Of a stretch of DNA of 64,000 nt, positions 33,995 through 64,000 are shown piece by piece. The notes below the pieces were generated by a model. It was not told the origin of the DNA and ran no database searches. It worked only from the letters and a program-made list of their open reading frames with translations. This DNA is from a virus. Numbering within the stretch: position 1 is the first letter of the stretch; each line of letters starts with the position of its first letter. The translations under genes and the position numbers were made by a program. The DNA is taken from the IMG/VR virus record IMGVR_UViG_3300032287_003808, positions 62,001 through 126,000 of that record. One strand, written 5' to 3'.

Positions 33995-35080
33995 TTAGTT
34001 CTTCCAAACTTTTTTCATAGTACCATCATCATAAACTTCAATATACATTCCTTGTTGAGTGTTTGGAGTACATTCTTGACCCATCATGTTAATAGTTTTA
34101 ACAACTGTCTTTTGTTTTACTGAGTTGTCTACCAGAATTGGGCTATATACTTTAAATTTTCCATCGTTGTCAACCTGAGTGAGTCTATAATAATTAAATG
34201 TTGGTTCAAAATCATTATCAATAAATGTATATGTCATTATTGTTGTACTATTACCTGCAGCTGGTTTTTGCCCAACAATAGAATTCTCAGTAAAATATCC
34301 AGTTGTTGATTTTTCAACCCAATAATAAGCTGAATTATGTTCTGAGGCTGTTTCCCAAACTAATAAGTTTCCTTTTTCAGTTGGCATTCCTTCAAATGAT
34401 ATTAATTCAACAGGTAAAGGGTCAATTTGGATTAATTCAATATTATCTAACCACCATTCTTCTCCTGCGGAGTTAATACGGCAATAAAAATCTATAGCAA
34501 CTGAATTCAAGTTAGCTGCTAAGTTTAAAGTATAAGTTGAAGGAGTTGATGTTGATGCTCCAGTGTTAGCTGCATAAACATCTCCTGCTGGTGCTGCTGA
34601 GTTTGTAAAGGAGCCGTTTGCTGTATGGATGACTAAGTTAGTGTTAGTGAAAGGCCACGTTGCATTTGAATTCCCAGTTATACGCATTTCAGTCACATAC
34701 GTCCCACCATTTGATGATACTTGAACACTTAAATAATCAGCTGCATCTAATCCACGTGTAGCCGCTGATGGGGAAGAGAATGTATATGATGCTACACGAA
34801 ATCTAATTTGATATAATTTGTTTGGATCTAAAGTTACAGTTGGCATTGAATACCAATCTTGTTCTAATCCTGATGAGCCATTTCCTGCTCCATAAATTAC
34901 TGCTGATACCGTTGGGGATACTGAGGCGTTATTAAACCATCCTGCTGTTGTCGCAGGTATAAACCATCCTGCTGTAAGGTAAGTGGGTGAAGATGTTTCC
35001 ATGTTATCAAATTCGATAACTGTTTGGCTGTTTACTATTCCCGTAAGAGCCAAAAATAAAGATAAAATTAGTTTTTTCAT
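33995..35080 (-). CDS. Secreted protein with T9SS-type C-terminal module
   Basis: 361 residues. Residues 1-19 form a Sec signal peptide (KKLILSLFLALTGIVNSQ). A beta-sandwich region follows, then the linker DPLPVELISFEG and an EHNSAYYWVEKS / FNYYRLTQVDNDG repeat-like strand set, and the last 40 residues (VVKTINMMGQECTP, then GMYIEVYDDGTMKKVW) match the short C-terminal modules of flavobacterial surface and secreted proteins. In Bacteroidota such modules direct export by the type IX system. A phage gene coding a host-type secreted protein suggests action at the cell surface or on released virions. A late-type motif lies before it. Confidence 0.82.
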   Translation of the reverse strand: MKKLILSLFLALTGIVNSQTVIEFDNMETSSPTYLTAGWFIPATTAGWFNNASVSPTVSAVIYGAGNGSSGLEQDWYSMPTVTLDPNKLYQIRFRVASYTFSSPSAATRGLDAADYLSVQVSSNGGTYVTEMRITGNSNATWPFTNTNLVIHTANGSFTNSAAPAGDVYAANTGASTSTPSTYTLNLAANLNSVAIDFYCRINSAGEEWWLDNIELIQIDPLPVELISFEGMPTEKGNLLVWETASEHNSAYYWVEKSTTGYFTENSIVGQKPAAGNSTTIMTYTFIDNDFEPTFNYYRLTQVDNDGKFKVYSPILVDNSVKQKTVVKTINMMGQECTPNTQQGMYIEVYDDGTMKKVWKN

Positions 35081-37417: not shown

Positions 37418-37840
37418 TTATTTTCCAAGCTCCCCTTTAGATTTTTCAATCAAAAGATTATTCACTCTACCTCTTGCTTTTTCACCTAATGGTATTGGAT
37501 GTCCTTCTTCATCAATATGAACAAACTTAATATGTGTTTTTAAAACAATAGCTTGATTTCCTGTATAAACGTTGTGTGCTCTTGCTTCCATATACAAGTT
37601 AATAGAGGTGTTTCCAATAGTTTGAGGCCAACCATAAATTTTAACCAATTGGCCTTCACGAGCTGGTCTTTCAAAATTACATTGTTCAATTGATACTGTT
37701 ACCATACGAGGTGTATCACATAATTGCATCGCGTAACCTGCAGCTGATGCGTCGATCCAAGCCAGGAGTTTACCTCCAAATAGATTGCCGTGAAAACCTA
37801 GATCTGATTTTTTAATCGGGTGTGAGTTAAGTAGTTCCAT
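37418..37840 (-). CDS. Acyl-CoA thioesterase (hotdog fold)
   Basis: 140 residues. LGFHGNLFGGKLLAWIDASA is the signature of YciA-type acyl-CoA thioesterases, with the Asp of WID placed as the catalytic residue, and VTVSIEQCNFERPAREGQLV and THIKFVHID follow in family order. It hydrolyses acyl-CoA to free acid and CoA. Such a metabolic gene is rare in phages. Its ATG overlaps the lipoprotein gene's stop by one base. Confidence 0.88.
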   Translation of the reverse strand: MELLNSHPIKKSDLGFHGNLFGGKLLAWIDASAAGYAMQLCDTPRMVTVSIEQCNFERPAREGQLVKIYGWPQTIGNTSINLYMEARAHNVYTGNQAIVLKTHIKFVHIDEEGHPIPLGEKARGRVNNLLIEKSKGELGK

Positions 37841-38076
37841 TATTTAATGTTTCTAATTGAAGAAATTTTAGTTGAGCTAAATGGGTAGTAACTTAATACA
37901 TAGATTTGGTTGTTGATTGTGTCTTCAACCATAATTTCATATCCTTCTCGAGCTAATAGGCTAGTTGAAGGTTGCACAATACATTTAGGGTATTTCTTTT
38001 GAGCGTCCTTTAGACGATCCATTTGATTAACACAACTTGTTAGTGCTAATACTGCTATTAATAATATTTTTTTCAT
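37840..38076 (-). CDS. Small lipoprotein
   Basis: 78 residues with signal sequence MKKILLIAVLALTSC; LTSC is a lipobox, so Cys15 would be lipidated and the protein placed in the cell envelope. The rest is basic and beta-like. Function unknown; phage lipoproteins often act in exclusion of other phages or in lysis. Confidence 0.75.
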   Translation of the reverse strand: MKKILLIAVLALTSCVNQMDRLKDAQKKYPKCIVQPSTSLLAREGYEIMVEDTINNQIYVLSYYPFSSTKISSIRNIK

Positions 38077-40112: not shown

Positions 40113-40208
40113 TTATCCAAACATTAGCCATCCTAAAGTAATCCCTGCAAGTATTCCTACCATAGTACCAATAAGGTACCATTTTTCATTAAAGTCTTTA
40201 AATTTCAT
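40113..40208 (-). CDS. 31-residue membrane peptide
   Basis: Starts MKFKDFNEKWYLIGTMVGIL and has one membrane helix. Its start overlaps the end of the lipoprotein gene by 4 bp and its stop is 3 bp above the DUF1653 gene. Confidence 0.6.
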   Translation of the reverse strand: MKFKDFNEKWYLIGTMVGILAGITLGWLMFG

Positions 40209-40438
40209 TTAAAATATATTGTGTCAATAATTACGTTTTTAATAGTTGCACTTTCAGAGCATTGATTGTCATAATTGACATGTTCTGTTACAATTGTGAC
40301 TGTGTCTTTTCCTGTAATGTATCCATATGCGTCACAATCTGTTTTAGATGATTTGCAGCTAGTTAATACTAAAAAATAACATATAATTAAAATAAGTGTT
40401 AAAAGTAAAATAAGTAAGTCGTGTGTTTTATTTTCCAT
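40205..40438 (-). CDS. Small lipoprotein or membrane protein
   Basis: 77 residues with a hydrophobic start (LLILLLTLILIICYFLVL) ending in the lipobox-like LTSC. A short outer domain with two Cys follows. Probably envelope-located; function unknown. Confidence 0.7.
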   Translation of the reverse strand: MENKTHDLLILLLTLILIICYFLVLTSCKSSKTDCDAYGYITGKDTVTIVTEHVNYDNQCSESATIKNVIIDTIYFK

Positions 40439-45674: not shown

Positions 45675-46472
45675 TTATAAAATAAATTTTTGGTTTGTTT
45701 CAGGGTGTGAGTGAATATAACTCCCCCATTTATATTTAGCATATTGGTGACAACTTGTTTCTTCTTGTTTAGATTGATTAATTTGTTCCGGAGATTTATT
45801 ACTTAGAGCAACAAAATGATAGAAGTGGCAATTCCAAGTTCTAAGCATTTTTAAACCGCTTAATTGGCATTTCATAAAGAACTCCCAATCTGTAACAAAA
45901 CCCGCCTGTGATGGATAATCTTCAGCAAAACCACCAACCTTTAAATAATCATACTTGTTTATAAGAATAGGAAATGTTGATCCGTTTTCTTCTATTTTAT
46001 CTCCAGAAGCGTAATGATAATCAAACAACCAAAACTTTTCTAAATCAAATGTATTTGGGTCACGTCCTAAATCTTCAATCATAAATTGTTTAAACATTGA
46101 AGGAAAAGGTTCAACTTGATTAGGTGTTAGAACAAATCCATTTGGATATTGTTTAGTACATTCACTCCAATCTTCTTCTAATGTAGTATCCCAAAAACGA
46201 GGAAACACATTATCATCATTTACAATTAATACTTTATCATATTGAGCATTGTATACTCCTAAGTTTAATGCTTTGCAAGCACCTACATTTTGCTCTAAAT
46301 TTAAAACATCAATATGTTTAGAGTATTTTTTAAGTACTTCTTCATTTAAGTCATAATGACCATCTACAACTACAATGATTTGATTTTCATTCTGTTGTCC
46401 TTCAATAGCTGATTTTAAGCATAAATCTAAAGCATGAGTTGTTTTGTAAGTGGGGATAATTACTGTTATCAT
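45675..46472 (-). CDS. Glycosyltransferase family 2
   Basis: 265 residues. MITVIIPTYKTTHALDLCLK at the start and the metal-binding VNDDN at about 85-88 give the GT-A fold of GT2 enzymes; a later FVTDWEFFMKCQLSG is the usual acceptor-site region. It moves a sugar from a nucleotide-sugar to an acceptor. It lies at the low-coordinate end of the glycan island, overlapping the next gene by 4 bp. Confidence 0.88.
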   Translation of the reverse strand: MITVIIPTYKTTHALDLCLKSAIEGQQNENQIIVVVDGHYDLNEEVLKKYSKHIDVLNLEQNVGACKALNLGVYNAQYDKVLIVNDDNVFPRFWDTTLEEDWSECTKQYPNGFVLTPNQVEPFPSMFKQFMIEDLGRDPNTFDLEKFWLFDYHYASGDKIEENGSTFPILINKYDYLKVGGFAEDYPSQAGFVTDWEFFMKCQLSGLKMLRTWNCHFYHFVALSNKSPEQINQSKQEETSCHQYAKYKWGSYIHSHPETNQKFIL

Positions 46473-47161
46473 ATAGTTTTATTGTTTATACATTCCCAAT
46501 CAATTGTAGGTGACATTAATTGTTCCATACAATGAGTTGATAATCCTGGTATTGGTGTCATTACGAATCTGCCTCTATGTTCATTAAGGTGCATAAATGT
46601 GTTATGGTCTCCTACTGTTGTTGACCAAACGTCATAGTCTTTATCAAATAAATCCCTTGTTATAATGAAACTGCCACAAGTTGAACCTATAGTTCTCCAA
46701 TGGTGAGTACTAGTGGTATAAACTCTTGAAATCATATTATTAACATGCTCCGGGAAGTACTTGTCATTATGGTCATACAACGAGATATAATGTAAGTCTG
46801 CGTATGTAGAGAATAAATTCATAGTTTCATCTACCCAATTATCAGTATGTAAATAATCGTTCTCTAAAAAATAAATTAACTCATTAGGTTCCATAGGTTG
46901 CTCTTTAATATGTTCTAAAAGAGCTCTATAAGATAATAAACTTGATTTATAATCAGTAGGAAATAAAGTAAATTTATCTTGATAGTTTTTAGTAAAGTCT
47001 TGATTTATATCTCCATCTAAAGCTAAAGTTAGATCAATATTATCATACCCTTCTATAGTTTTAAGAAGATTTTTAAAACAGTTTTCATAACTAAACCATG
47101 ACGGTCTCCATCTCCCAGGACTGTTAGTTACAGCGTGGCGATAATAGATATGGATTTTCAT
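46469..47161 (-). CDS. Glycosyltransferase-like protein
   Basis: 230 residues. It starts KIHIYYRHAVTNSPGRWRPS and has LIYFLENDYLHTDNWVDE, an ExD-type metal site in a GT-A-like place, and a TTVGDHNTFMHLNEH block. The family is not certain, but position between a GT2 and the GNAT-methyltransferase fusion supports a glycan role. Overlaps its neighbour by 4 bp. Confidence 0.68.
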   Translation of the reverse strand: MKIHIYYRHAVTNSPGRWRPSWFSYENCFKNLLKTIEGYDNIDLTLALDGDINQDFTKNYQDKFTLFPTDYKSSLLSYRALLEHIKEQPMEPNELIYFLENDYLHTDNWVDETMNLFSTYADLHYISLYDHNDKYFPEHVNNMISRVYTTSTHHWRTIGSTCGSFIITRDLFDKDYDVWSTTVGDHNTFMHLNEHRGRFVMTPIPGLSTHCMEQLMSPTIDWECINNKTI

Positions 47162-47162
47162 A

Positions 47163-48329
47163 TTAGTGTTTTTTACAAATTAACATTATACTTGAACATA
47201 AATCAGGGTATTGATGACCTAGTTGAAAACAACCATCTAAATATTCTTTTGAAATAATATCAGTATTGAGCAATTGGTCCCATTGAAAATTAGCTAATGC
47301 TTTAAAGAATATTCCAGAGCGATTAATAACATTTAACCCTCCGTTTCTAGCATCTCTTTCTAAAGTATCTAAAGTATAAGTAATCCTATGGCCATGTTCT
47401 GCTTCAGCTGGAGTAATTGCTGCATTATGAGTAATTAGTCCCATTTTAACTGCTATTTGTCTTGAAGGAGCATTAGCATTAGGGCATACTAAAAACAATT
47501 TCCCATCTTCAGACAACCATTCATTTTTAATTCTAGATAACAATCCTACAGGATCATCAATATGCTCTAAAACATGAGTTAAGATAATATTATCATATTT
47601 TTTAGGAAGTTGAACATTTTCAAATAATGAATTAAAATACTCAATATCATGATTTAAATTTTGTTTAGCTGTCTTAATCGCTTCATCAGATGCTTCTACA
47701 CATGTAATATCATTAAAATAAGGAATAAGACGTTTTGTAAAATCACCTTTAAAACTTCCTAATTCAAGACAATTACCTTCAACAAAATGATGTTTAAATG
47801 ATTCTATCATATAGTGATGTATTACATCAAAATCAAAGTTGTAAGCGTACTTATGGTCTGGGGTGTCTTTTAATTCTTTATTGTAGTTTCTGTTCATGTT
47901 GTTCCATTTTAATATTAAAACATTATCTTTAGTTTCATGTAATATAAAATCATTTTTTTCATAGAAATTTATAGCTGGTTTGTTATTTTTAAAAACTTCT
48001 AAAGTTATGTTATTGTATTGCAAATCAGTACATCTAGACTTACAAGTATCTAATAATATTTGAGCTACACCTTGATTATGATACTCAGGTACTACACTGA
48101 TATTTGTTATGTATAAATTTTTCTGGTCAGAATTGTTATAGAAGGCTATTAAACCTATCAAAATATCATCTACTATTAATTCTATTCGTCTAGAATTTTC
48201 ATATAATTTTTTAGAGTATCCCTTAATATCAACATACGATGATAACTCAGGAGTAAATGATTTAGAACAAGATATTAAATGATTATATATCTGTTCTTGA
48301 GTGCTGTTGTTTATAGTTATTTTATTCAT
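47163..48329 (-). CDS. GNAT acetyltransferase - SAM methyltransferase fusion
   Basis: 388 residues with two enzymes. Residues about 1-145 are a GNAT domain (LYITNISVVPEYHNQGVAQI binds acetyl-CoA; AINFYEKNDF follows). Residues about 165-388 are a class I methyltransferase: LELGSFKGDFTKRL is motif I, ITCVEASDEAI binds the adenosyl ribose, and LTHVLEHIDDP follows. It probably adds both an acyl and a methyl group to a sugar. Fusions of this pair are unusual. Confidence 0.85.
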   Translation of the reverse strand: MNKITINNSTQEQIYNHLISCSKSFTPELSSYVDIKGYSKKLYENSRRIELIVDDILIGLIAFYNNSDQKNLYITNISVVPEYHNQGVAQILLDTCKSRCTDLQYNNITLEVFKNNKPAINFYEKNDFILHETKDNVLILKWNNMNRNYNKELKDTPDHKYAYNFDFDVIHHYMIESFKHHFVEGNCLELGSFKGDFTKRLIPYFNDITCVEASDEAIKTAKQNLNHDIEYFNSLFENVQLPKKYDNIILTHVLEHIDDPVGLLSRIKNEWLSEDGKLFLVCPNANAPSRQIAVKMGLITHNAAITPAEAEHGHRITYTLDTLERDARNGGLNVINRSGIFFKALANFQWDQLLNTDIISKEYLDGCFQLGHQYPDLCSSIMLICKKH

Positions 48330-49287
48330 TTTCTAATATTGCTAATCCAAATCCATATTTACCAAAATCATTTCCATTATAAGTCATATAATGTTGCCCA
48401 TCAACTTCAAAGACGTGTGGATAATGTTGCATAGTGCTGTCCCATCCCGTTTCAGAGTATCTAATCCCTGCTTCTTTATCTTTACGTTCCCAATTAATTA
48501 AGTCAATTGATGTTGCGTACCCTATTTTATACCCTCTTCCAGGTGTAGTTCTAAAATCTAAGCCTTCTCTATAAACAAAATACATATGATATAATCCATC
48601 TTTATAAAATACATCTGGTCCTGCTTGACATTCGTTTTCATCTAATATATCAGGGATAATATTCACATTTAGGCGAACCCATTTGATCCCATCTTTAGAA
48701 ATAGCCATCCTATTCTTATAGATTATTTCAGGTTTGCCATTATGATTAATCCATTTGGTCCCAGCTAAATAAAACATATACCAGGTATTGTTAAATTTTC
48801 TAATTTTAGGACCACTTAGAACAAATGGCTCAAATGCATCTGCTGATAATATAGGGCCGGGTCCTATTCTGCTGAATGTTTCTCCATTATCTTCACTATA
48901 TGCTAAACCAATAGAAGTATTAAATGGTACTGATTGGCAACGAGTCCACCCAGCGTAGTAAAATAATATTTTATCATTGAGTCTAATATTACTAGAAGGA
49001 TAAACAGCAAACTCATCAAACGTACCTAGTTCCCCTAAAGGCATTATAGGTTTATCTGAGACTCTAATTATTTTAGTAAGGTCGTTTTTGTCTAAATCTA
49101 AAAATGTTGTATAAGATTTTGCAAACCCATCCTCATCATTTTCAGGTCTACAAGAAAAATATACTCTAACAACATCATCTAAAACTAAAGTATGAGTGCA
49201 TTGTGAATGAGTTTTCATCCATGGTCTGTCAATACCGTCATCCCATACTGTTGGGTCAAAAATATGTCCTAATTTATTCCATTTCAT
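48322..49287 (-). CDS. Beta-propeller glycosidase-like protein
   Basis: 321 residues with repeated blade motifs (VRVYFSCRPENDEDG, DKILFYYAGWTR, NTWYMFYLAGTKW, GLYHMYFVYREG, QHYMTYNGNDFG), each ending in an aromatic pair. This is the five-bladed fold of GH43/GH32/GH130-type enzymes found in polysaccharide gene clusters. It may cut or modify a glycan; catalytic acids cannot be fixed by eye. Confidence 0.78.
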   Translation of the reverse strand: MKWNKLGHIFDPTVWDDGIDRPWMKTHSQCTHTLVLDDVVRVYFSCRPENDEDGFAKSYTTFLDLDKNDLTKIIRVSDKPIMPLGELGTFDEFAVYPSSNIRLNDKILFYYAGWTRCQSVPFNTSIGLAYSEDNGETFSRIGPGPILSADAFEPFVLSGPKIRKFNNTWYMFYLAGTKWINHNGKPEIIYKNRMAISKDGIKWVRLNVNIIPDILDENECQAGPDVFYKDGLYHMYFVYREGLDFRTTPGRGYKIGYATSIDLINWERKDKEAGIRYSETGWDSTMQHYPHVFEVDGQHYMTYNGNDFGKYGFGLAILENE

Positions 49288-49985
49288 ATTAAAGTATATT
49301 CATTTAAATATTCTTGTATTTGTTCTTTTGAATTAAACATCATAACATCTATAATTGAGAGCCAAGAAACAAATTCATTATTGAATTGTTTATATTTAAT
49401 TGGGTTTGATTTAATAAAGTTAAGTTTAATCTTGTTTTGTTTAAATGTTTCTTTATCATACAACTCTACTCCCCCTATAGAATTTATATAAACATCAGCA
49501 TTTTGAGCTTTACATAAAGATAAGACTTTATCTTGGGATTTCAAAGTATGATCTGCATTTATTGAAGAAGAAATTATAATAGGTGTTTTAATTTCTAAAT
49601 AAGAATTTATTAAAACAATACTATCATATATAAATTTAAATAAATTTTCTTCTGGGTTGTTTAAACATTTTGATATTAATTTAAATGTTTCTTCAAAATA
49701 AGGAGCTTTATTATATGATGATTTAATTATGTTAATCATTTTATTTTTATCTTTCTCCCACGACTCAGATAACTCTCTTTCTACTACATCTAAATAATCA
49801 GAATCTTTTTTTATCGGAAGAGTAATAAGTTGGTCTTTTCCATTTGCTAAAATACGATTTCTATTTATCCATCCTTTTTTAGTATATTGGATATTATCGT
49901 ATATAACAAATTGATCAACAGAATTTATTAATTGAAAATACCCTATATAAGGCATGAAATACGGCTGCATTATAGCTAATTTCAT
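49284..49985 (-). CDS. WbqC family protein
   Basis: 233 residues with MQPYFMPYIGYFQLI, QFVIYDNIQYTKKGWINRN and RILANGKDQLITLPIKK, the strongly conserved start of WbqC proteins. The family is found in O-antigen and glycan clusters and is thought to act in sugar modification. Overlaps both neighbours by 4 bp. Confidence 0.93.
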   Translation of the reverse strand: MKLAIMQPYFMPYIGYFQLINSVDQFVIYDNIQYTKKGWINRNRILANGKDQLITLPIKKDSDYLDVVERELSESWEKDKNKMINIIKSSYNKAPYFEETFKLISKCLNNPEENLFKFIYDSIVLINSYLEIKTPIIISSSINADHTLKSQDKVLSLCKAQNADVYINSIGGVELYDKETFKQNKIKLNFIKSNPIKYKQFNNEFVSWLSIIDVMMFNSKEQIQEYLNEYTLI

Positions 49986-50620
49986 TTAGTATAGATTTCA
50001 AATTTAGATAAATCTGGGTATGGCATCTCTAAGTCTGCATTATGTTTTGGTGTCTCACCATTATAAAATTGGTTCATAAGAAGCAAACCACGAGCAGCTA
50101 ATTCAGGCATCATATAAAAATTCCACCCTAACATATCAAAATTATCATCATGGTAAGAACACTCACGTCTCCCACTATATCTTGCTCTTTTAAACCATAA
50201 ATAAGCTTCATGACTATCAGTTAATATAGCTCCTCCTTTAGATAATTTAAAATGTTTATAAGGACCAGTAAATGAAATACACATATGCGTTTCAGGTCGG
50301 TACATGTCTGATGTAAAAGATAAGGCTGCATCCCAGACATTACTTCCTTCAAGTGGGTAAGCTCCTTTTAATGTCTTACCTTTAACCTTCTTAAAATTTA
50401 CTTTCAACCCAGCATGAATAATTTCACATGGTACTGATGGGTATGTTCTAGAAGGGATTGTAATATATTCTGATGTGATGCTCTTATTTATATGGTATTC
50501 GTAATAAAGAGCTAAAAATAAACCGTTTGATTGGTTATCTACAGTCACTACATAAGGTGCTCCTGTATATTCTGCTAAACGTCTTTCAAACTCATTTGTA
50601 ATATCATAAACATTTTTCAT
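49982..50620 (-). CDS. Short DegT-type aminotransferase-like protein
   Basis: 212 residues. The large PLP domain of DegT/DnrJ/EryC1 enzymes is visible: YTGAPYVVTVDNQSNGLFLA, TIPSRTYPSVPCEIIHAG, Asp97 in VWDAALSF, and SFTGPYKHFKLSKGG with a Lys at 122 in the place of the PLP lysine. The C-terminal domain is missing (usual length about 370). It may act as a half-enzyme, pair with the full-length enzyme at 50993-52159, or be degenerate. Confidence 0.75.
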   Translation of the reverse strand: MKNVYDITNEFERRLAEYTGAPYVVTVDNQSNGLFLALYYEYHINKSITSEYITIPSRTYPSVPCEIIHAGLKVNFKKVKGKTLKGAYPLEGSNVWDAALSFTSDMYRPETHMCISFTGPYKHFKLSKGGAILTDSHEAYLWFKRARYSGRRECSYHDDNFDMLGWNFYMMPELAARGLLLMNQFYNGETPKHNADLEMPYPDLSKFEIYTK

Positions 50621-50996
50621 AACTATAAAAATTTTGCTTTTTAAAACCTAATTTCTCAAATACTTTACTACTTGCTATATTTTGAGGAAATACAAATGCT
50701 GTTAAAGCATCATGTTGTTCCATAAATTCAGAAACCATAAATGTGCCTATACCTTTTCCTTTAAAATTAGGGTCAACACAATAAGTAATTTCATTTTCTT
50801 TAATAACTCCTATATAACCTACAGGTTCTTCACCTAATAAACATATTTTATATCTATTAGAATTTTTACTCATGTATTCTGCCTGTTGTTCAGGAGTTAT
50901 TTTAATTTGAGTAAAAAACCAGTTTTCATTTTCAGGATGCGTCCTTAACAAACGAACAAACTCCCAATATTTAGAAGTACAATCTACTAATATCAT
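50604..50996 (-). CDS. GNAT acetyltransferase
   Basis: 130 residues. EEPVGYIGVIKENEITYCVD and NFKGKGIGTFMVSEFMEQ are the acetyl-CoA site, and ASSKVFEKLGFKKQNFYSYE closes the fold. It probably acetylates an amino sugar made by the neighbouring aminotransferase. Overlaps both neighbours. Confidence 0.87.
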   Translation of the reverse strand: MILVDCTSKYWEFVRLLRTHPENENWFFTQIKITPEQQAEYMSKNSNRYKICLLGEEPVGYIGVIKENEITYCVDPNFKGKGIGTFMVSEFMEQHDALTAFVFPQNIASSKVFEKLGFKKQNFYSYEKCL

Positions 50997-52159
50997 GCTT
51001 TAATAATATTATTTACTGTTTTAATTATAAATTTAATATCTTTTTCTGTCAAAAACAAATGAAGAGGTAAAGAAATTAATTCATCACTTGCTTTATGAGC
51101 ATTAGGGCATGTACCAAAACCATAAGAATACATTTCATATTGAGTATTATCTTTATAATGTACTCCTGGGAATATACTATGGTTATTGAGATGTTCTAAT
51201 ACATTATCTCTGTTATTTACTCGTATTTGGTATAAATGTCTTGAAGATTGGCAATTTAGATTGTGACGGACTATTTTTATTTTAGAGTTATTCTTGAATC
51301 CTTCATCATACATCTCACATATTTCTCTTCTACGCTCATTATCTTCATCTAAGTATTTTAAACTAACTAACCCCATAGAAGCCATAATAGAATTACTATG
51401 TGCTTTAAACCCACAGTCTACAACATCATAATCCCACTTATAATTTCCTTTTTCATTAGTACGTTTAAAAGTATCTTTATCAATACCTAACCAAGATAAT
51501 TTACGAGCTAAAGCATCATAATCACCGTTTTGAAAGCATATCATTCCTGAATCTGCTGTTGGTAGATTCTTTACCGCTTGGAAACTATAAACTGTTACAT
51601 CTGCATCCCATCCTATTTGGATTTTGGAAGAACCCATACCATCAAAGATTTGGTCTACTTTTGTGCCAGCCATGTGAGCTGCGTCAAGAATAAACTTTAA
51701 GCCATTTTCTCTACAAAATTCTAATATTTCAAAATATTGCCCTATGTTTCCTCCTATACCTACAAATAATACTGCTTTAGTTTTCTTAGTAATTTTAGAT
51801 TTAACACTTTCTAGATCTAAACATAATTGATCATCTACATCAGCAAATACTGGTTTTAGGTTATTATATACTATAGAATGATTTGAAGAAACAAATGTTA
51901 ATGGAGTTGTAATTATTTCATCTCCATTTTTCCATTTATTAGTGTCTTTTAAAATTTTAATAGCAATTTGTAAACCAACAGTATTTGAAGCTACATAATG
52001 AGCGTATGGTACATGAGCATATTTTTTAAATGCTTCCTCAAACTTATTAGTTTTAAACCCTAACCCAGTCCACCCTAAATCAAGACATTCTTCTATTTCT
52101 TGTAGTATTTCTTCTTTACGGTATTTAGGTTTAAATAATTGAATAGGAGTATTTTCCAT
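50993..52159 (-). CDS. DegT/DnrJ/EryC1 sugar aminotransferase
   Basis: 388 residues, full length. PLTFVSSNHSIVYNNLKPVF, Asp159 in LDAAHMAG, and Lys197 in SFQAVKNLPTADSGMI, which would hold PLP, are all present. These enzymes transfer an amino group to a keto-sugar nucleotide. With the GNAT gene it would give an N-acetylated amino sugar. Confidence 0.93.
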   Translation of the reverse strand: MENTPIQLFKPKYRKEEILQEIEECLDLGWTGLGFKTNKFEEAFKKYAHVPYAHYVASNTVGLQIAIKILKDTNKWKNGDEIITTPLTFVSSNHSIVYNNLKPVFADVDDQLCLDLESVKSKITKKTKAVLFVGIGGNIGQYFEILEFCRENGLKFILDAAHMAGTKVDQIFDGMGSSKIQIGWDADVTVYSFQAVKNLPTADSGMICFQNGDYDALARKLSWLGIDKDTFKRTNEKGNYKWDYDVVDCGFKAHSNSIMASMGLVSLKYLDEDNERRREICEMYDEGFKNNSKIKIVRHNLNCQSSRHLYQIRVNNRDNVLEHLNNHSIFPGVHYKDNTQYEMYSYGFGTCPNAHKASDELISLPLHLFLTEKDIKFIIKTVNNIIKA

Positions 52160-52161
52160 AA

Positions 52162-52809
52162 TTAAATAGTATCGTAATAACTGTTTTGTTTTTCTTGTTT
52201 ATCAATTGTTTTAGGATGATATAGGGAAAATTCCTCTATAGCGGGTAATTGAGTCCAAGTTTTAAATCCATCTAAACGCTCATGAACTTTATTTACCCAT
52301 TTTATCTCCGGTTTATTTCTCCAAATACGCCATTGGTAATCAGGCCAATTAACCCATTCTTCTTCACTTAATCTCCATCCCCATTTTTGGATATGTTCTT
52401 GAGTCAAGCCTTCTACTGTATTAACTCTCGGCACTTGAAGCACCTCACATTCAGGATTGTCTTCTAACATTAAGTGTAGTATCTTAATTAAATTTTCATT
52501 TGGTACCTCATCAGCATCAATTTGAAAAATATAATCACCAGTACATGCTTTGGTTAGATGGTTTTTAAACGCTCCAAAATCATTATTTAATGGATAAAAT
52601 ACAACTCGAATATTACCTTGTGTATTATGTTTCATAAGGTAAACATGTACTTGACTTTTATCCTCAGGATGATTTTTCATATCATCCACAGTCAAATCCA
52701 TTTGAACTACAATCTCATCTTGAGGTCGTTTATGTTTAAGTAAAAAATTTAACAGTCGTTGAATCTCTATAAATTCATTACAGACTGTAACCGCGTAACT
52801 AATTTTCAT
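52162..52809 (-). CDS. Glycosyltransferase family 2
   Basis: 215 residues. ISYAVTVCNEFIEIQRLLNF starts the fold and IFQIDADEVPNE supplies the DxD-type metal site; YQWRIWRNKPEIKWVNKVHE follows, as in GT2 enzymes for LPS cores. Head of the tight gene string 52809-45675. Confidence 0.85.
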   Translation of the reverse strand: MKISYAVTVCNEFIEIQRLLNFLLKHKRPQDEIVVQMDLTVDDMKNHPEDKSQVHVYLMKHNTQGNIRVVFYPLNNDFGAFKNHLTKACTGDYIFQIDADEVPNENLIKILHLMLEDNPECEVLQVPRVNTVEGLTQEHIQKWGWRLSEEEWVNWPDYQWRIWRNKPEIKWVNKVHERLDGFKTWTQLPAIEEFSLYHPKTIDKQEKQNSYYDTI

Positions 52810-52847
52810 ATAACTTTAATATATTAAGGATTTTTTTAAAGGACAAG

Positions 52848-53297
52848 TTATTCTGGGAGTACTCCTATATAACTTAAAGCTTCAATATAGTCACGCTCAG
52901 GGAATATTTTCATATTAGGCATATCCATTTTATGAGTTTGTAATTTGCCCATAACTTCTTTTCTATCTTCTTCAGGCACTTCAACAGCTTTAACAGCTCC
53001 CCACCCCCAGTTTTGAGCATTTTGACCATATGCAAATACCATACCTTGCTCAGGATGATTGATGGTGTTTGGAATCCAAATTAAACCAGTTTCAGAATCA
53101 GTCCAAGCTAAATCTTTATACAACTCAGGCAACGTTTCCATCTGTTGTTGAAAAAATTCATGTTCTTCTGTCATTAATGAATTAGTCCAAAAACCACAAG
53201 ATAGACTCATGTAATTATAAATCTCAGGAGCAACTTGTACTTTATAACACAAGTCACCTCCTGATTTAGGGCAGTTAATTATTTCTTCGTTTTGCAT
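52848..53297 (-). CDS. Protein of unknown function in glycan island
   Basis: 149 residues, starting MQNEEIINCPKSGGDLCYKV, where two Cys in a CPxxGGxxC layout might bind metal, with Trp-rich WTDSETGLIWIPN and WGWGAVKAVEV. I recall similar proteins in T4-like phages; function unknown. Shares a boundary base with the glycosyltransferase. Confidence 0.73.
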   Translation of the reverse strand: MQNEEIINCPKSGGDLCYKVQVAPEIYNYMSLSCGFWTNSLMTEEHEFFQQQMETLPELYKDLAWTDSETGLIWIPNTINHPEQGMVFAYGQNAQNWGWGAVKAVEVPEEDRKEVMGKLQTHKMDMPNMKIFPERDYIEALSYIGVLPE

Positions 53298-54559
53298 TAT
53301 GCTTCTACTTTTTTAAGTGTTGGTAATTTTAATTCAACTTGTTTAGGAAATTCAGGTATACGTTCAGTTAAAACAACATCTAATTTTTCTTTCATCGCTT
53401 CAAATGAAAAATTAGTTCTTGAATGATACCCTTGACGTTTTGCTTTCTCAAAATATGGTTTATAATTTTCAAACATATCTTTCAAATAATGTCCTACATG
53501 ACCATAATCAACACTAAACCATTGTGCTTCTTTTAACAACATATTGTTAGCAGCTGATGGATGTATGTTTGTCATTTGACCTTGTAACAATGTTGTAAAC
53601 TCTGGGTTTAGATAATCTGTATGGCCGCTCCAGTTTGTTGTAATAATTGGTTTATTCGTGAGTGAAAATTCAAGTAATGGGCGACCAAATCCTTCCCCTT
53701 TAGTTAAATTAATCATTGCTTTAACTTTAGAATGATTATAAATCTCATTCATTTCAACATCTGTAAATTCACCATGCAGCAAATAAACATTTGGTAAGTT
53801 GTTTGATTTAACAGTGGATTTAATAATTGATATTTTCTTTAAGATCTCATCTCTATCCATATATGAAGCACCTACTTGAGTAGTCTTCAAAATTAAAGCA
53901 GGTTTTTTACTTTTATTTTTAAACGTTTCATAAAACGCTTTAATTAATAAACCTACATTCTTTCTATCCTCACCCATTTGACCTTGCATCCAATGACCTA
54001 CAAACAAATAAGCAAAATCTTCTTTAATATTAGATAAATCAAATTCTGATTTTACGGGTTTATATACTTCAGTGTTTGCACCTTCAAACATAACCTCACT
54101 ATCACCTTTCCATTCAATATGCCCTACTACTTGGTTAGTATTTTGATCACGTTTCTCAAATTTACTTTCCTTTAATACCTTAATAGTATGTTCAGAAGAA
54201 CCTAAAATTAAATTCATCCTACTGCAACCTTCAATCCATTCAGCAGGCGCAATTGTTGATTCAATACCTGCTGTACATCCAATATTATATTTTCCTACTG
54301 GTTGGAATTCATTTGGTACTGTAATTTGCATCCAAATTTCAGGTTGTGCTGTTAATTGTTGGGTAAAATGTTTATTTAAAAACTCCCACTCAGTATTCTC
54401 TTTAATAAAACCAAATGGAGTATTTCCCCACCGTTGTGGTATTATCTTTACATCATATTTATCTAATTCAATAATTGCTTTAACAATATCTCGTGATCGT
54501 GCTCCGTACCCACTATAAGTGTCAATTGGGCAACTAATTACAAATGTTGGTTTACTCAT
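53297..54559 (-). CDS. Glycosyltransferase family 4-like
   Basis: 420 residues, GT-B fold. The C-terminal half has KAMINLTKGEGFGRPLLEFS, the ExFGxPxxE site for the donor phosphate, and IITTNWSGHTDYL. The N-terminal half has YSGYGARSRDIVKAI. It builds sugar chains, donor unknown. Overlaps the small gene upstream by 4 bp. Confidence 0.9.
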   Translation of the reverse strand: MSKPTFVISCPIDTYSGYGARSRDIVKAIIELDKYDVKIIPQRWGNTPFGFIKENTEWEFLNKHFTQQLTAQPEIWMQITVPNEFQPVGKYNIGCTAGIESTIAPAEWIEGCSRMNLILGSSEHTIKVLKESKFEKRDQNTNQVVGHIEWKGDSEVMFEGANTEVYKPVKSEFDLSNIKEDFAYLFVGHWMQGQMGEDRKNVGLLIKAFYETFKNKSKKPALILKTTQVGASYMDRDEILKKISIIKSTVKSNNLPNVYLLHGEFTDVEMNEIYNHSKVKAMINLTKGEGFGRPLLEFSLTNKPIITTNWSGHTDYLNPEFTTLLQGQMTNIHPSAANNMLLKEAQWFSVDYGHVGHYLKDMFENYKPYFEKAKRQGYHSRTNFSFEAMKEKLDVVLTERIPEFPKQVELKLPTLKKVEA

Positions 54560-54810
54560 ATAACTTGTTTTAATTTAATTTCAGGTATAAATTCAGTTGG
54601 ATTTTGTACATATTCATATTGATCAAGTTCATCTTCATGTAAACATATAAGTTCAATAGTATCTTGTCCATTTTTTATAAAGGCAAATAAAATAATTTCT
54701 CCCGGTCTAATATTTCTCCCAGAAGTATATGTTTTAAGAGTTACTTTTTTAAGTGCTTCTTGGGTAACTATTTTATTCTCTGTAAGTTGTTGTGTAAAAT
54801 ACTCTCTCAT
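54556..54810 (-). CDS. Small protein between glycosyltransferases
   Basis: 84 residues, starting MREYFTQQLTENKIVTQEAL, beta-rich second half (GEIILFAFIKNGQDTIELIC). Position suggests a partner of the enzymes, nothing more is visible. Confidence 0.72.
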   Translation of the reverse strand: MREYFTQQLTENKIVTQEALKKVTLKTYTSGRNIRPGEIILFAFIKNGQDTIELICLHEDELDQYEYVQNPTEFIPEIKLKQVI

Positions 54811-54811
54811 C

Positions 54812-56254
54812 TTAATATAACAATTCGTGTTTAATAGTATCTTCTTTTACCTCATTACAGTTGATTAACTCATATTTTTCGCGTGGAGTCCACGTGTTAA
54901 ATAATTTATCTATCGCGTTAATCGCTCTATTTCCCATAGCCTCTCCTGTAAATCCTGCCTCATTCAAAGCCCACTCTCTGCCTTTCTCACCACACTCTTT
55001 TCTCTCTTCACGAGTAAAATTTGTATATAACTCAATCAAATGCTCAGTAGCATCCTCAGGTCGACATCTGTCATCAAAAATATAAGGTGTTTTAGGCGAA
55101 CCTTGAATCGAGCGATTAGTTGGATAAACCGGAAACGCCCATTGACCATGTTTTGTATACTTACCAGTATGGTTAGAAGGAATCTCAGGTGTTGGATTAT
55201 ACCAATTACCATCTTCATCTTCAAAACGCATTTGATCTTGCATTCCACCTGTTACATTTGCAATAATAACAGTTCCTGCCAAAATCGCTTCCGTTAACGA
55301 TAGACCCCATCCTTCATTTGATGTTAACAAAATTTGGGCATCAGCAATATTATACAACATATTTAACTGTTGTGATGAAAGTTTATTTACTGAAAAATAA
55401 ATTGCATCTGGGTAGTCTTGGAATAATATTTTTCTTACTGCTTCTAAATCAGTTCCATGATCACTTACTACTTCTGTATGAAGTACTAAAGCACATTTAT
55501 CAGCTTTTTCTTTTGGTAAACGATCTAAAAAGTAACGAAACGCAAGCATTGTATCCGGAATTTGTTTTCTACGAATGTTTCTTGAATTAAAAAACACTAC
55601 AAAATCCTTCTCATCATTTCCAAACAAATTAGCTCTAAATTGCTCTAATTCTTTTAACTCATTTTCCTCTTTAATCGGATAAAAATGTTGCTCATTCAAT
55701 CCATGAGGTACATACTCAATAACTTTATTTTTTGCTTTCTCACCCAAAACCAACTCATTAATAAGTTTCGTTTGTTTCGAAATTGCTAATAACGCATCAC
55801 ATGATTCGTAAAACGCTTTGTTATACAACGGCGCCGGATAATCATCCCAAATATTCAAATAAATAATTGGACATTGTTTTCTAATTTCATTTTCAATTGA
55901 AAACAACCACTCAAAATATCTTGGATCCGTAATCAACATAATAGCATCTGGTTTTTCCAGTTGCATCATATGTCTAATTAACTCAGGTGATCCATAACCA
56001 TCAGTTGGATACATAAATACAGATGAATCTTCAATCCCTGCATTTGCATTAGTGTCTGCTGATAAATCAAGGTGTTTACCTTTTTCTGGGTGTTGAATTG
56101 CTCCTGCAATGTTTACCCAATTAAAATGATGACATGTGTTGATTACTAGTTCACGTGCTACTGTTGCTACACCTGAATGTACTCTAATGTCGTCACAAAT
56201 TAATAGGATTTTCTTTCTTTGTTCTTTGGGTAGATAACTAAATTTTTCTTTCAT
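54812..56254 (-). CDS. Glycosyltransferase family 4-like
   Basis: 480 residues, GT-B fold. RVHSGVATVARELVINTCHH is the Gly-rich first loop, and LLTSNEGWGLSLTEAILAGT with VIIANVTGGMQDQM forms the donor site. A region with FFNSRNIRRKQIPDTMLAFR also fits. First gene of the glycan island as read. Confidence 0.92.
   Translation of the reverse strand: MKEKFSYLPKEQRKKILLICDDIRVHSGVATVARELVINTCHHFNWVNIAGAIQHPEKGKHLDLSADTNANAGIEDSSVFMYPTDGYGSPELIRHMMQLEKPDAIMLITDPRYFEWLFSIENEIRKQCPIIYLNIWDDYPAPLYNKAFYESCDALLAISKQTKLINELVLGEKAKNKVIEYVPHGLNEQHFYPIKEENELKELEQFRANLFGNDEKDFVVFFNSRNIRRKQIPDTMLAFRYFLDRLPKEKADKCALVLHTEVVSDHGTDLEAVRKILFQDYPDAIYFSVNKLSSQQLNMLYNIADAQILLTSNEGWGLSLTEAILAGTVIIANVTGGMQDQMRFEDEDGNWYNPTPEIPSNHTGKYTKHGQWAFPVYPTNRSIQGSPKTPYIFDDRCRPEDATEHLIELYTNFTREERKECGEKGREWALNEAGFTGEAMGNRAINAIDKLFNTWTPREKYELINCNEVKEDTIKHELLY

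Positions 56255-62174: not shown

Positions 62175-64000
<1,826 letters not shown>

Follow-up and report, generated by a model that had tools for sequence, protein, structure and literature searches.

The window analysed here is a stretch of 64,000 nucleotides that corresponds to positions 62001-126000 of the virus record IMGVR_UViG_3300032287_003808, a linear and possibly incomplete record of 131,434 bp. A 361-aa open reading frame beginning with ATG spans exactly 33995-35080 of the window on the minus strand, so the phage gene that a first-pass annotation had placed there is real, although its strand had been left unstated. The gene sits in an array of small, mostly co-directional genes, with the preceding gene 53 bp away. 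Its features, in window coordinates, are as follows.

33995-35080, minus strand: whole gene, encoding a 361-aa protein that is probably a secreted, type IX secretion system (T9SS)-type cargo (open reading frame; 92 viral relatives; dN/dS 0.18 against the relative L001)
33995-33997, minus strand: stop codon of the 361-aa cargo gene
33998-34123, minus strand: putative short T9SS C-terminal signal, residues 320-361 (structural model, conservation, comparison with a type A profile, and the short-CTD definition of PMC11969387)
34127-34417, minus strand: FN3-like domain, residues 222-318, beginning LPVELISF (structure match; also found before the short tail in at least five classes of phage head)
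34421-35026, minus strand: jelly-roll head, residues 19-220, with a MAM / gingipain cleaved-adhesin / CBM61-like fold (model and fold matches)
35027-35080, minus strand: predicted Sec-type signal peptide, residues 1-18 (pattern of n-region, core and small residue before Q kept in the family; putative cleavage site)

Several other genes of the window were recorded. At 45675-56254 a cluster of glycosyltransferase, aminotransferase and acetyltransferase genes resembles a surface-polysaccharide locus, and Flavobacterium phage immuto has a similar cluster; its products might modify the very surface on which T9SS cargo is anchored. Two small predicted lipoproteins with an LTSC lipobox (40205-40438 and 37840-38076) are candidates for further phage surface or exclusion proteins. 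A phage-encoded GroEL gene occupies 62175-63821, and a GroEL gene also lies near the cargo-family gene in about ten related phages. A lipoprotein reading of the cargo protein itself was rejected, as it has no lipobox.

A single-sequence search of viral contigs returned 20 relatives of the cargo protein, and a profile search returned 92, which are 36-75% identical and most of which are full-length. Pairwise dN/dS values within the family of 0.08-0.22 indicate purifying selection and, together with the 92 viral relatives, establish that the gene is not a chance open reading frame. Comparison with the nearest relative, L001, gave a dN/dS of 0.18 at a dS of 0.93; since this dS is near saturation, the values from closer pairs are sounder. 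When the profile was run against 84,980 prokaryote species, each represented by one genome, it found a single relative, in a Bacteroidetes MAG and matching over the head only, while a sensitive profile of the head gave 7 matches in 390 Bacteroidota genomes. The cargo family is thus widespread in phages and nearly absent from bacterial genomes. Its genes lie behind a gp23-like major head protein gene, before AAA ATPase, CobT-like or GroEL genes, or elsewhere, as would be expected of a gene that is accessory and mobile. The idea of a constant partner gene was rejected, as the neighbours vary among phages.

The N-terminus of the protein is of Sec type (MKKLILSLFLALTGIVNS|QTV), with cleavage predicted before Q19. 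Among 45 family members, scored by a crude scan with a simple hydrophobicity rule that serves as a heuristic, a basic n-region and a strong hydrophobic core were each present in 44 and a small residue before the Q in all 45, bearing out the Sec signal that had been proposed. An AlphaFold2 model built from 45 sequences (m590b44ec8eac; pLDDT 88.1) revealed a jelly-roll head, an FN3 domain and a three-stranded tail; in an earlier model from 15 sequences the head was poor (pLDDT 64). Structure prediction had been suggested as a check, and this model upholds the beta-sandwich region of the first-pass annotation. By structure comparison, residues 20-220 matched the MAM domain of meprin beta (Z 13.6, rmsd 2.8, 145 aligned), TmCBM61 (Z 13.1) and the cleaved adhesins K3 (Z 12.7; 3m1h) and K1 (Z 12.1; 4itc) of the gingipain Kgp. 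Because the identities, the FN3 match given below included, are low (about 7-21%), these matches denote a shared fold and are no proof of ligand or function; the protein has no Pfam match at E<=1 to the cleaved adhesin or MAM families, and the likeness is one of fold. Gingipain cleaved-adhesin domains are themselves exported by the T9SS, and the head is 10-13% identical in sequence to them and to the MAM/CBM61 jelly rolls. The head keeps the conserved motifs EQDWY and AGEEWWLDN. The LPVELISF junction was correctly recognized and lies at residues 222-229, at the start of a domain that matched the N-terminal FN3-like part of the pectate lyase 4u49 (Z 11.5, rmsd 2.6, 88 aligned), the match covering residues 225-320.

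The C-terminus reads QQGMYIEVYDDGTMKKVWKN. The tail would be 42 aa long (residues 320-361) if the protein were cleaved at the putative site N319|S320, and the model places strands at 326-330, 344-350 and 355-360 (tail pLDDT about 76-89). We assigned INMMGQE (with G334) to motif B, G344-M-Y-I to motif D and K356, K357 and K360 to motif E. Among the 45 family members G334 is kept in all and G344 in 44, residue 357 is basic in most, and a basic residue falls within the last six positions in every one; between the motif glycines and this C-terminal basic residue the tail sequence varies. The gap between motifs B and D, with boundaries set by eye, is 6 aa (residues 338-343), and the motif B position that is strongly conserved as Tyr (four residues before the Gly), located by eye on alignments of canonical CTDs, is occupied by I330.

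The first-pass annotation had described a C-terminal module of the standard T9SS kind and had named a search with T9SS C-terminal domain (CTD) models as the result by which this claim could fall. That search gave no match. The protein matched no Pfam, NCBIfam or PHROG model at E<=1, which covers the type B (TIGR04131/PF13585) and type C (NF033708) CTDs in NCBIfam and Pfam, and it did not reach the curated cut-off of the type A models (TIGR04183/PF18962). Fifteen relatives likewise matched no CTD model, nor any Pfam, NCBIfam or PHROG model consistently, a TIGR04183 search of the whole 131-kb virus record found nothing, and a search of PDB sequences with the protein returned nothing useful. The seven-stranded beta-sandwich of a type A CTD, of about 70 aa or more, is also absent, the modelled tail having three strands over residues 326-360. 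A module of the standard kind must therefore be given up. However, the missing match is not decisive for a link to the T9SS, because the models miss short CTDs and because full type A CTDs occur on homologues that share the head. The broader claim of a T9SS-linked secreted protein is probably right: the Sec signal, the short-CTD-like tail and these homologues favor it, whereas the standard CTD models do not.

A profile of the tail aligned with 20 type A CTDs exactly over motifs B, D and E (hhalign score 20.6). None of 200 column-permuted controls reached this score, the best of them coming close at 19.25, and the profile-profile probability was only 35%. Judged from sequence and model, the tail appears to be a shorter, three-stranded relative of the T9SS CTD that the curated models miss. 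It resembles the type A CTD (Por_Secre_tail) in its place, in motifs B, D and E and in being interchangeable with it within one head family; it differs in having neither a first strand of the YPNP type nor the middle strands, and in scoring below the models. A closer counterpart is provided by the short CTDs of Prevotella intermedia, which are 40-55 aa long, form one three-stranded sheet equivalent to strands 3, 6 and 7 of the long CTD, and keep motifs B, D and E with a B-D gap of 1-6 aa (PMC11969387). They are cleaved and glycosylated like long CTDs and their modelled binding to PorV is alike; P. intermedia is the only species reported to have both CTD lengths (Ye et al. 2025, PMC11969387). 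The phage tail is similar to them in length, its three strands, the glycines of motifs B and D, a basic motif E, the B-D gap, and its position at the C-terminus of Sec-signal proteins. In contrast to them, it is encoded by a phage, follows an LPVEL FN3 domain, has Ile in place of the motif B Tyr, and carries a characteristic YDDGT before motif E. In HBP35, the last 22 residues (motifs D and E) suffice for export of GFP and the motif E lysines are needed (PMC10202324). CTDs may be incompatible across species (PMC11285876).

We then compared the tails borne by related heads. The same jelly-roll head ends in a type A CTD in four phages (L071, L073, L052 and L077; 35-40 bits, with the cut-off at 23) and in two bacterial proteins (L188 and L192; 50-52 bits). 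Since the members with full CTDs occupy two places in the head tree with well-supported branches between them, tail types have been exchanged at least twice. Conversely, the cassette of FN3 domain and short tail ends at least five unrelated phage head classes, among them CUB/GEVED, comprising 55 unique proteins of 227-858 aa; the classes rest on clustering by BLAST, and class 1 may combine two or more heads. Bacterial genomes were searched with a profile of the tail only, because most of their matches to an FN3-plus-tail profile covered just the FN3 part. Many weak matches proved to be ordinary long type A CTDs, and the clear short-tail type occurred in only 3 of 395 sampled Bacteroidota genomes. 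Similar tails were found on bacterial Sec-type proteins without an FN3 domain, namely an esterase, a GH16 glycosidase and a CotH protein. The type A CTDs on the same head, the exchange of tails, the profile alignment over motifs B, D and E, the cassette on at least five heads and the tails of bacterial enzymes all argue that the tail works as a T9SS signal.

On this comparative evidence, the protein probably follows a Sec signal to the periplasm and is then exported through the T9SS by its short tail, and there is a good likelihood that it ends up as a T9SS-exported surface or extracellular protein. It is unlikely that Sec alone acts, so that the protein reaches just the periplasm or the inner face of the outer membrane and the tail is an extension of the FN3 domain or a vestige without T9SS function. 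The lack of CTD model matches in the protein and its relatives and a modelled tail that is merely a three-stranded sheet after the FN3 domain would suit such a protein, but almost every one of the 45 members retains the motif glycines and a basic residue at the C-terminus, with variable sequence between these sites, genuine type A CTDs take the place of the tail in homologues, and bacterial enzymes that have no FN3 domain end in such a tail.

For export through the T9SS we propose the following sequence of steps. The Sec signal would carry the cargo to the periplasm and be removed before Q19. The tail of about 42 aa, as a minimal B/D/E CTD on a single three-stranded sheet, would then bind PorV in the SprA translocon, and the cargo would cross the outer membrane, a step with strong comparative support. 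PorU may cleave the conserved linker at N319|S320, which fits the published PorU preference of T/E/D/N|G/A/S, and the jelly roll with its FN3 stalk would be released or attached to surface polysaccharide. Throughout, FN3 domain and tail would serve as a constant export handle across phages while the head is exchanged. Mutations in the T9SS genes gld and spr give phage resistance in F. columnare (PMC9233685), and other phages could therefore be excluded by a protein that masks the cell surface or competes in the T9SS. A lectin- or adhesin-like head might cover or compete for sites on the infected-cell surface and limit superinfection, a role that we put forward as possible rather than probable; aggregation, binding of released polysaccharide and protection from predators are alternatives. 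Adhesion and surface-sugar binding would be equally compatible with the modelled head fold.

Competition for the T9SS could also be the sole purpose of the protein, which would then be a decoy that binds PorV/SprA, saturates or stalls host export, cuts the supply of surface adhesins and receptors, and so blocks later phages. Lower T9SS output would indeed exclude phages, as with the resistant gld/spr mutants (PMC9233685), and substrate binding to the translocon buries almost 40% of the CTD surface (PMC10994853). A decoy, however, would have no need of heads that are exchangeable, resemble sugar-binding domains, span 200-800 aa and evolve under purifying selection, and where these heads are joined to full CTDs they resemble ordinary cargo; we regard this as a quite improbable account.

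The position of family genes bears on whether the protein could belong to the virion. Relatives with a gp23-like capsid have a variable slot directly behind the capsid gene, the last 97 capsid residues being 91-100% identical among loci. The slot may contain the jelly-roll protein, genes for other, non-secreted products, or larger secreted proteins whose heads are unrelated, or it may lack a secreted gene altogether. Many of the larger proteins end in the same FN3 domain and short tail; one locus (L218) has long-CTD proteins. The cargo gene of the window lies outside this slot, yet belongs to the same family. A capsid decoration or a tail-fibre-like adhesin built from Ig/FN3 domains would agree with the frequency of FN3 and jelly-roll domains on virions and with the place of the gene directly behind the major capsid gene in several relatives. 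It is nevertheless very unlikely, given a Sec-type signal conserved across the family, a gene that also occurs next to genes for AAA ATPase/GroEL or, as in the window, within an array of small genes, and a slot that takes other gene types, in some cases with a subtilase beside the cargo gene. Mis-assembly of a host gene into a viral contig would account for domains of host type but is hardly credible beside 92 relatives in many independent viral contigs, next to capsid, baseplate and GroEL genes, and a single match in 84,980 prokaryote genomes.

Related loci yielded further observations. A subtilase (Peptidase_S8) gene lies beside short-tail cargo genes at L080 9081-11102, L055 4002-5510 and L201 117-1001, one of them with SprB repeats. 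Sec-type proteins of 774 aa (L219 and L252) and 484 aa (L212 and L253) behind the capsid gene have tails resembling CTDs (DGTVEIKKISVN; PGFYFI...KKIYKN), which are scored by neither tail profile and are possibly more short-CTD variants. In L185 (LR745206.1), a 634-kb phage, the FN3 domain and short tail are out of frame with a secreted PKD-type open reading frame that lies upstream, and the locus looks frameshifted.

The closest cultured relative found for the virus is Flavobacterium phage immuto (baseplate wedge 46% and GroEL 59.5% identity), whose host is Flavobacterium sp. LMO8. This agrees with the flavobacterial host that had been suggested for the virus. One Bacteroidota MAG (SRR5468220_bin.80, G001) holds a relative of the phage head (L186), a short-tail esterase (L153) and 134 type A CTD matches, and its lineage is perhaps near a host lineage. 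We found no short-tail protein in immuto. Its gp015, however, consists of a cohesin and a type A CTD (44.8-46.5 bits) and is a T9SS cargo of its own; like the window protein it is of secreted type, but its head differs and its CTD is full-length. In immuto (L183, NC_055915.1 10500-16500), gp013 (a C-type lectin), gp014 and gp015 resemble a set of secreted cargo proteins, and a similar trio occurs in the virus record G007 (L119).

The first-pass annotation had called such a protein unusual in a phage, which overstates the case, as immuto gp015 and published proteins attest. T9SS cargo in phages was already known from Cryophage, whose T9SS-labelled secreted cargo is variable among variants and was suggested to act in superinfection exclusion (Bellas et al. 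2020, PMC7468147), and from BACON/T9SS proteins of gut phages (PMC6949934). In these cargoes, unlike in the window protein, the sorting domain is annotated (as type A in the case of Cryophage) and the head is of endoglucanase, GH39, PA14 or BACON type, and a shared short-CTD cassette is not described there. In the part of the literature covered we found no paper on such a cassette in phages, which leaves its novelty unproven, and no experiment on any phage-encoded T9SS cargo. A short-CTD cassette that is shared across phages and carries interchangeable heads appears to be new.

These comparisons suggest that phages use the host secretion machine to place their own proteins on the infected-cell surface. 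In its fullest form, which we hold tentatively and somewhat short of an even chance, phages of aquatic Bacteroidota would carry a surface-display system in which a constant FN3 domain and minimal T9SS handle bear exchangeable heads (adhesins, CUB/GEVED, jelly rolls), partly at a fixed slot behind the capsid gene, and coat infected cells with proteins of the phage's choosing. If this is true, the short CTD would be a widespread, phage-favored export signal and not a specialty of P. intermedia, and the short T9SS signal would extend beyond the single species in which it has been reported. The phage tails would offer natural evidence on the part of the signal that is sufficient for export, motifs B, D and E, as well as a small export tag that can be tested. 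The FN3 domain with its YDDGT tail would also be a marker for secreted proteins of Bacteroidota phages that present annotation models miss, and would point to phages altering the surfaces of infected cells through the most characteristic secretion machine of their hosts.
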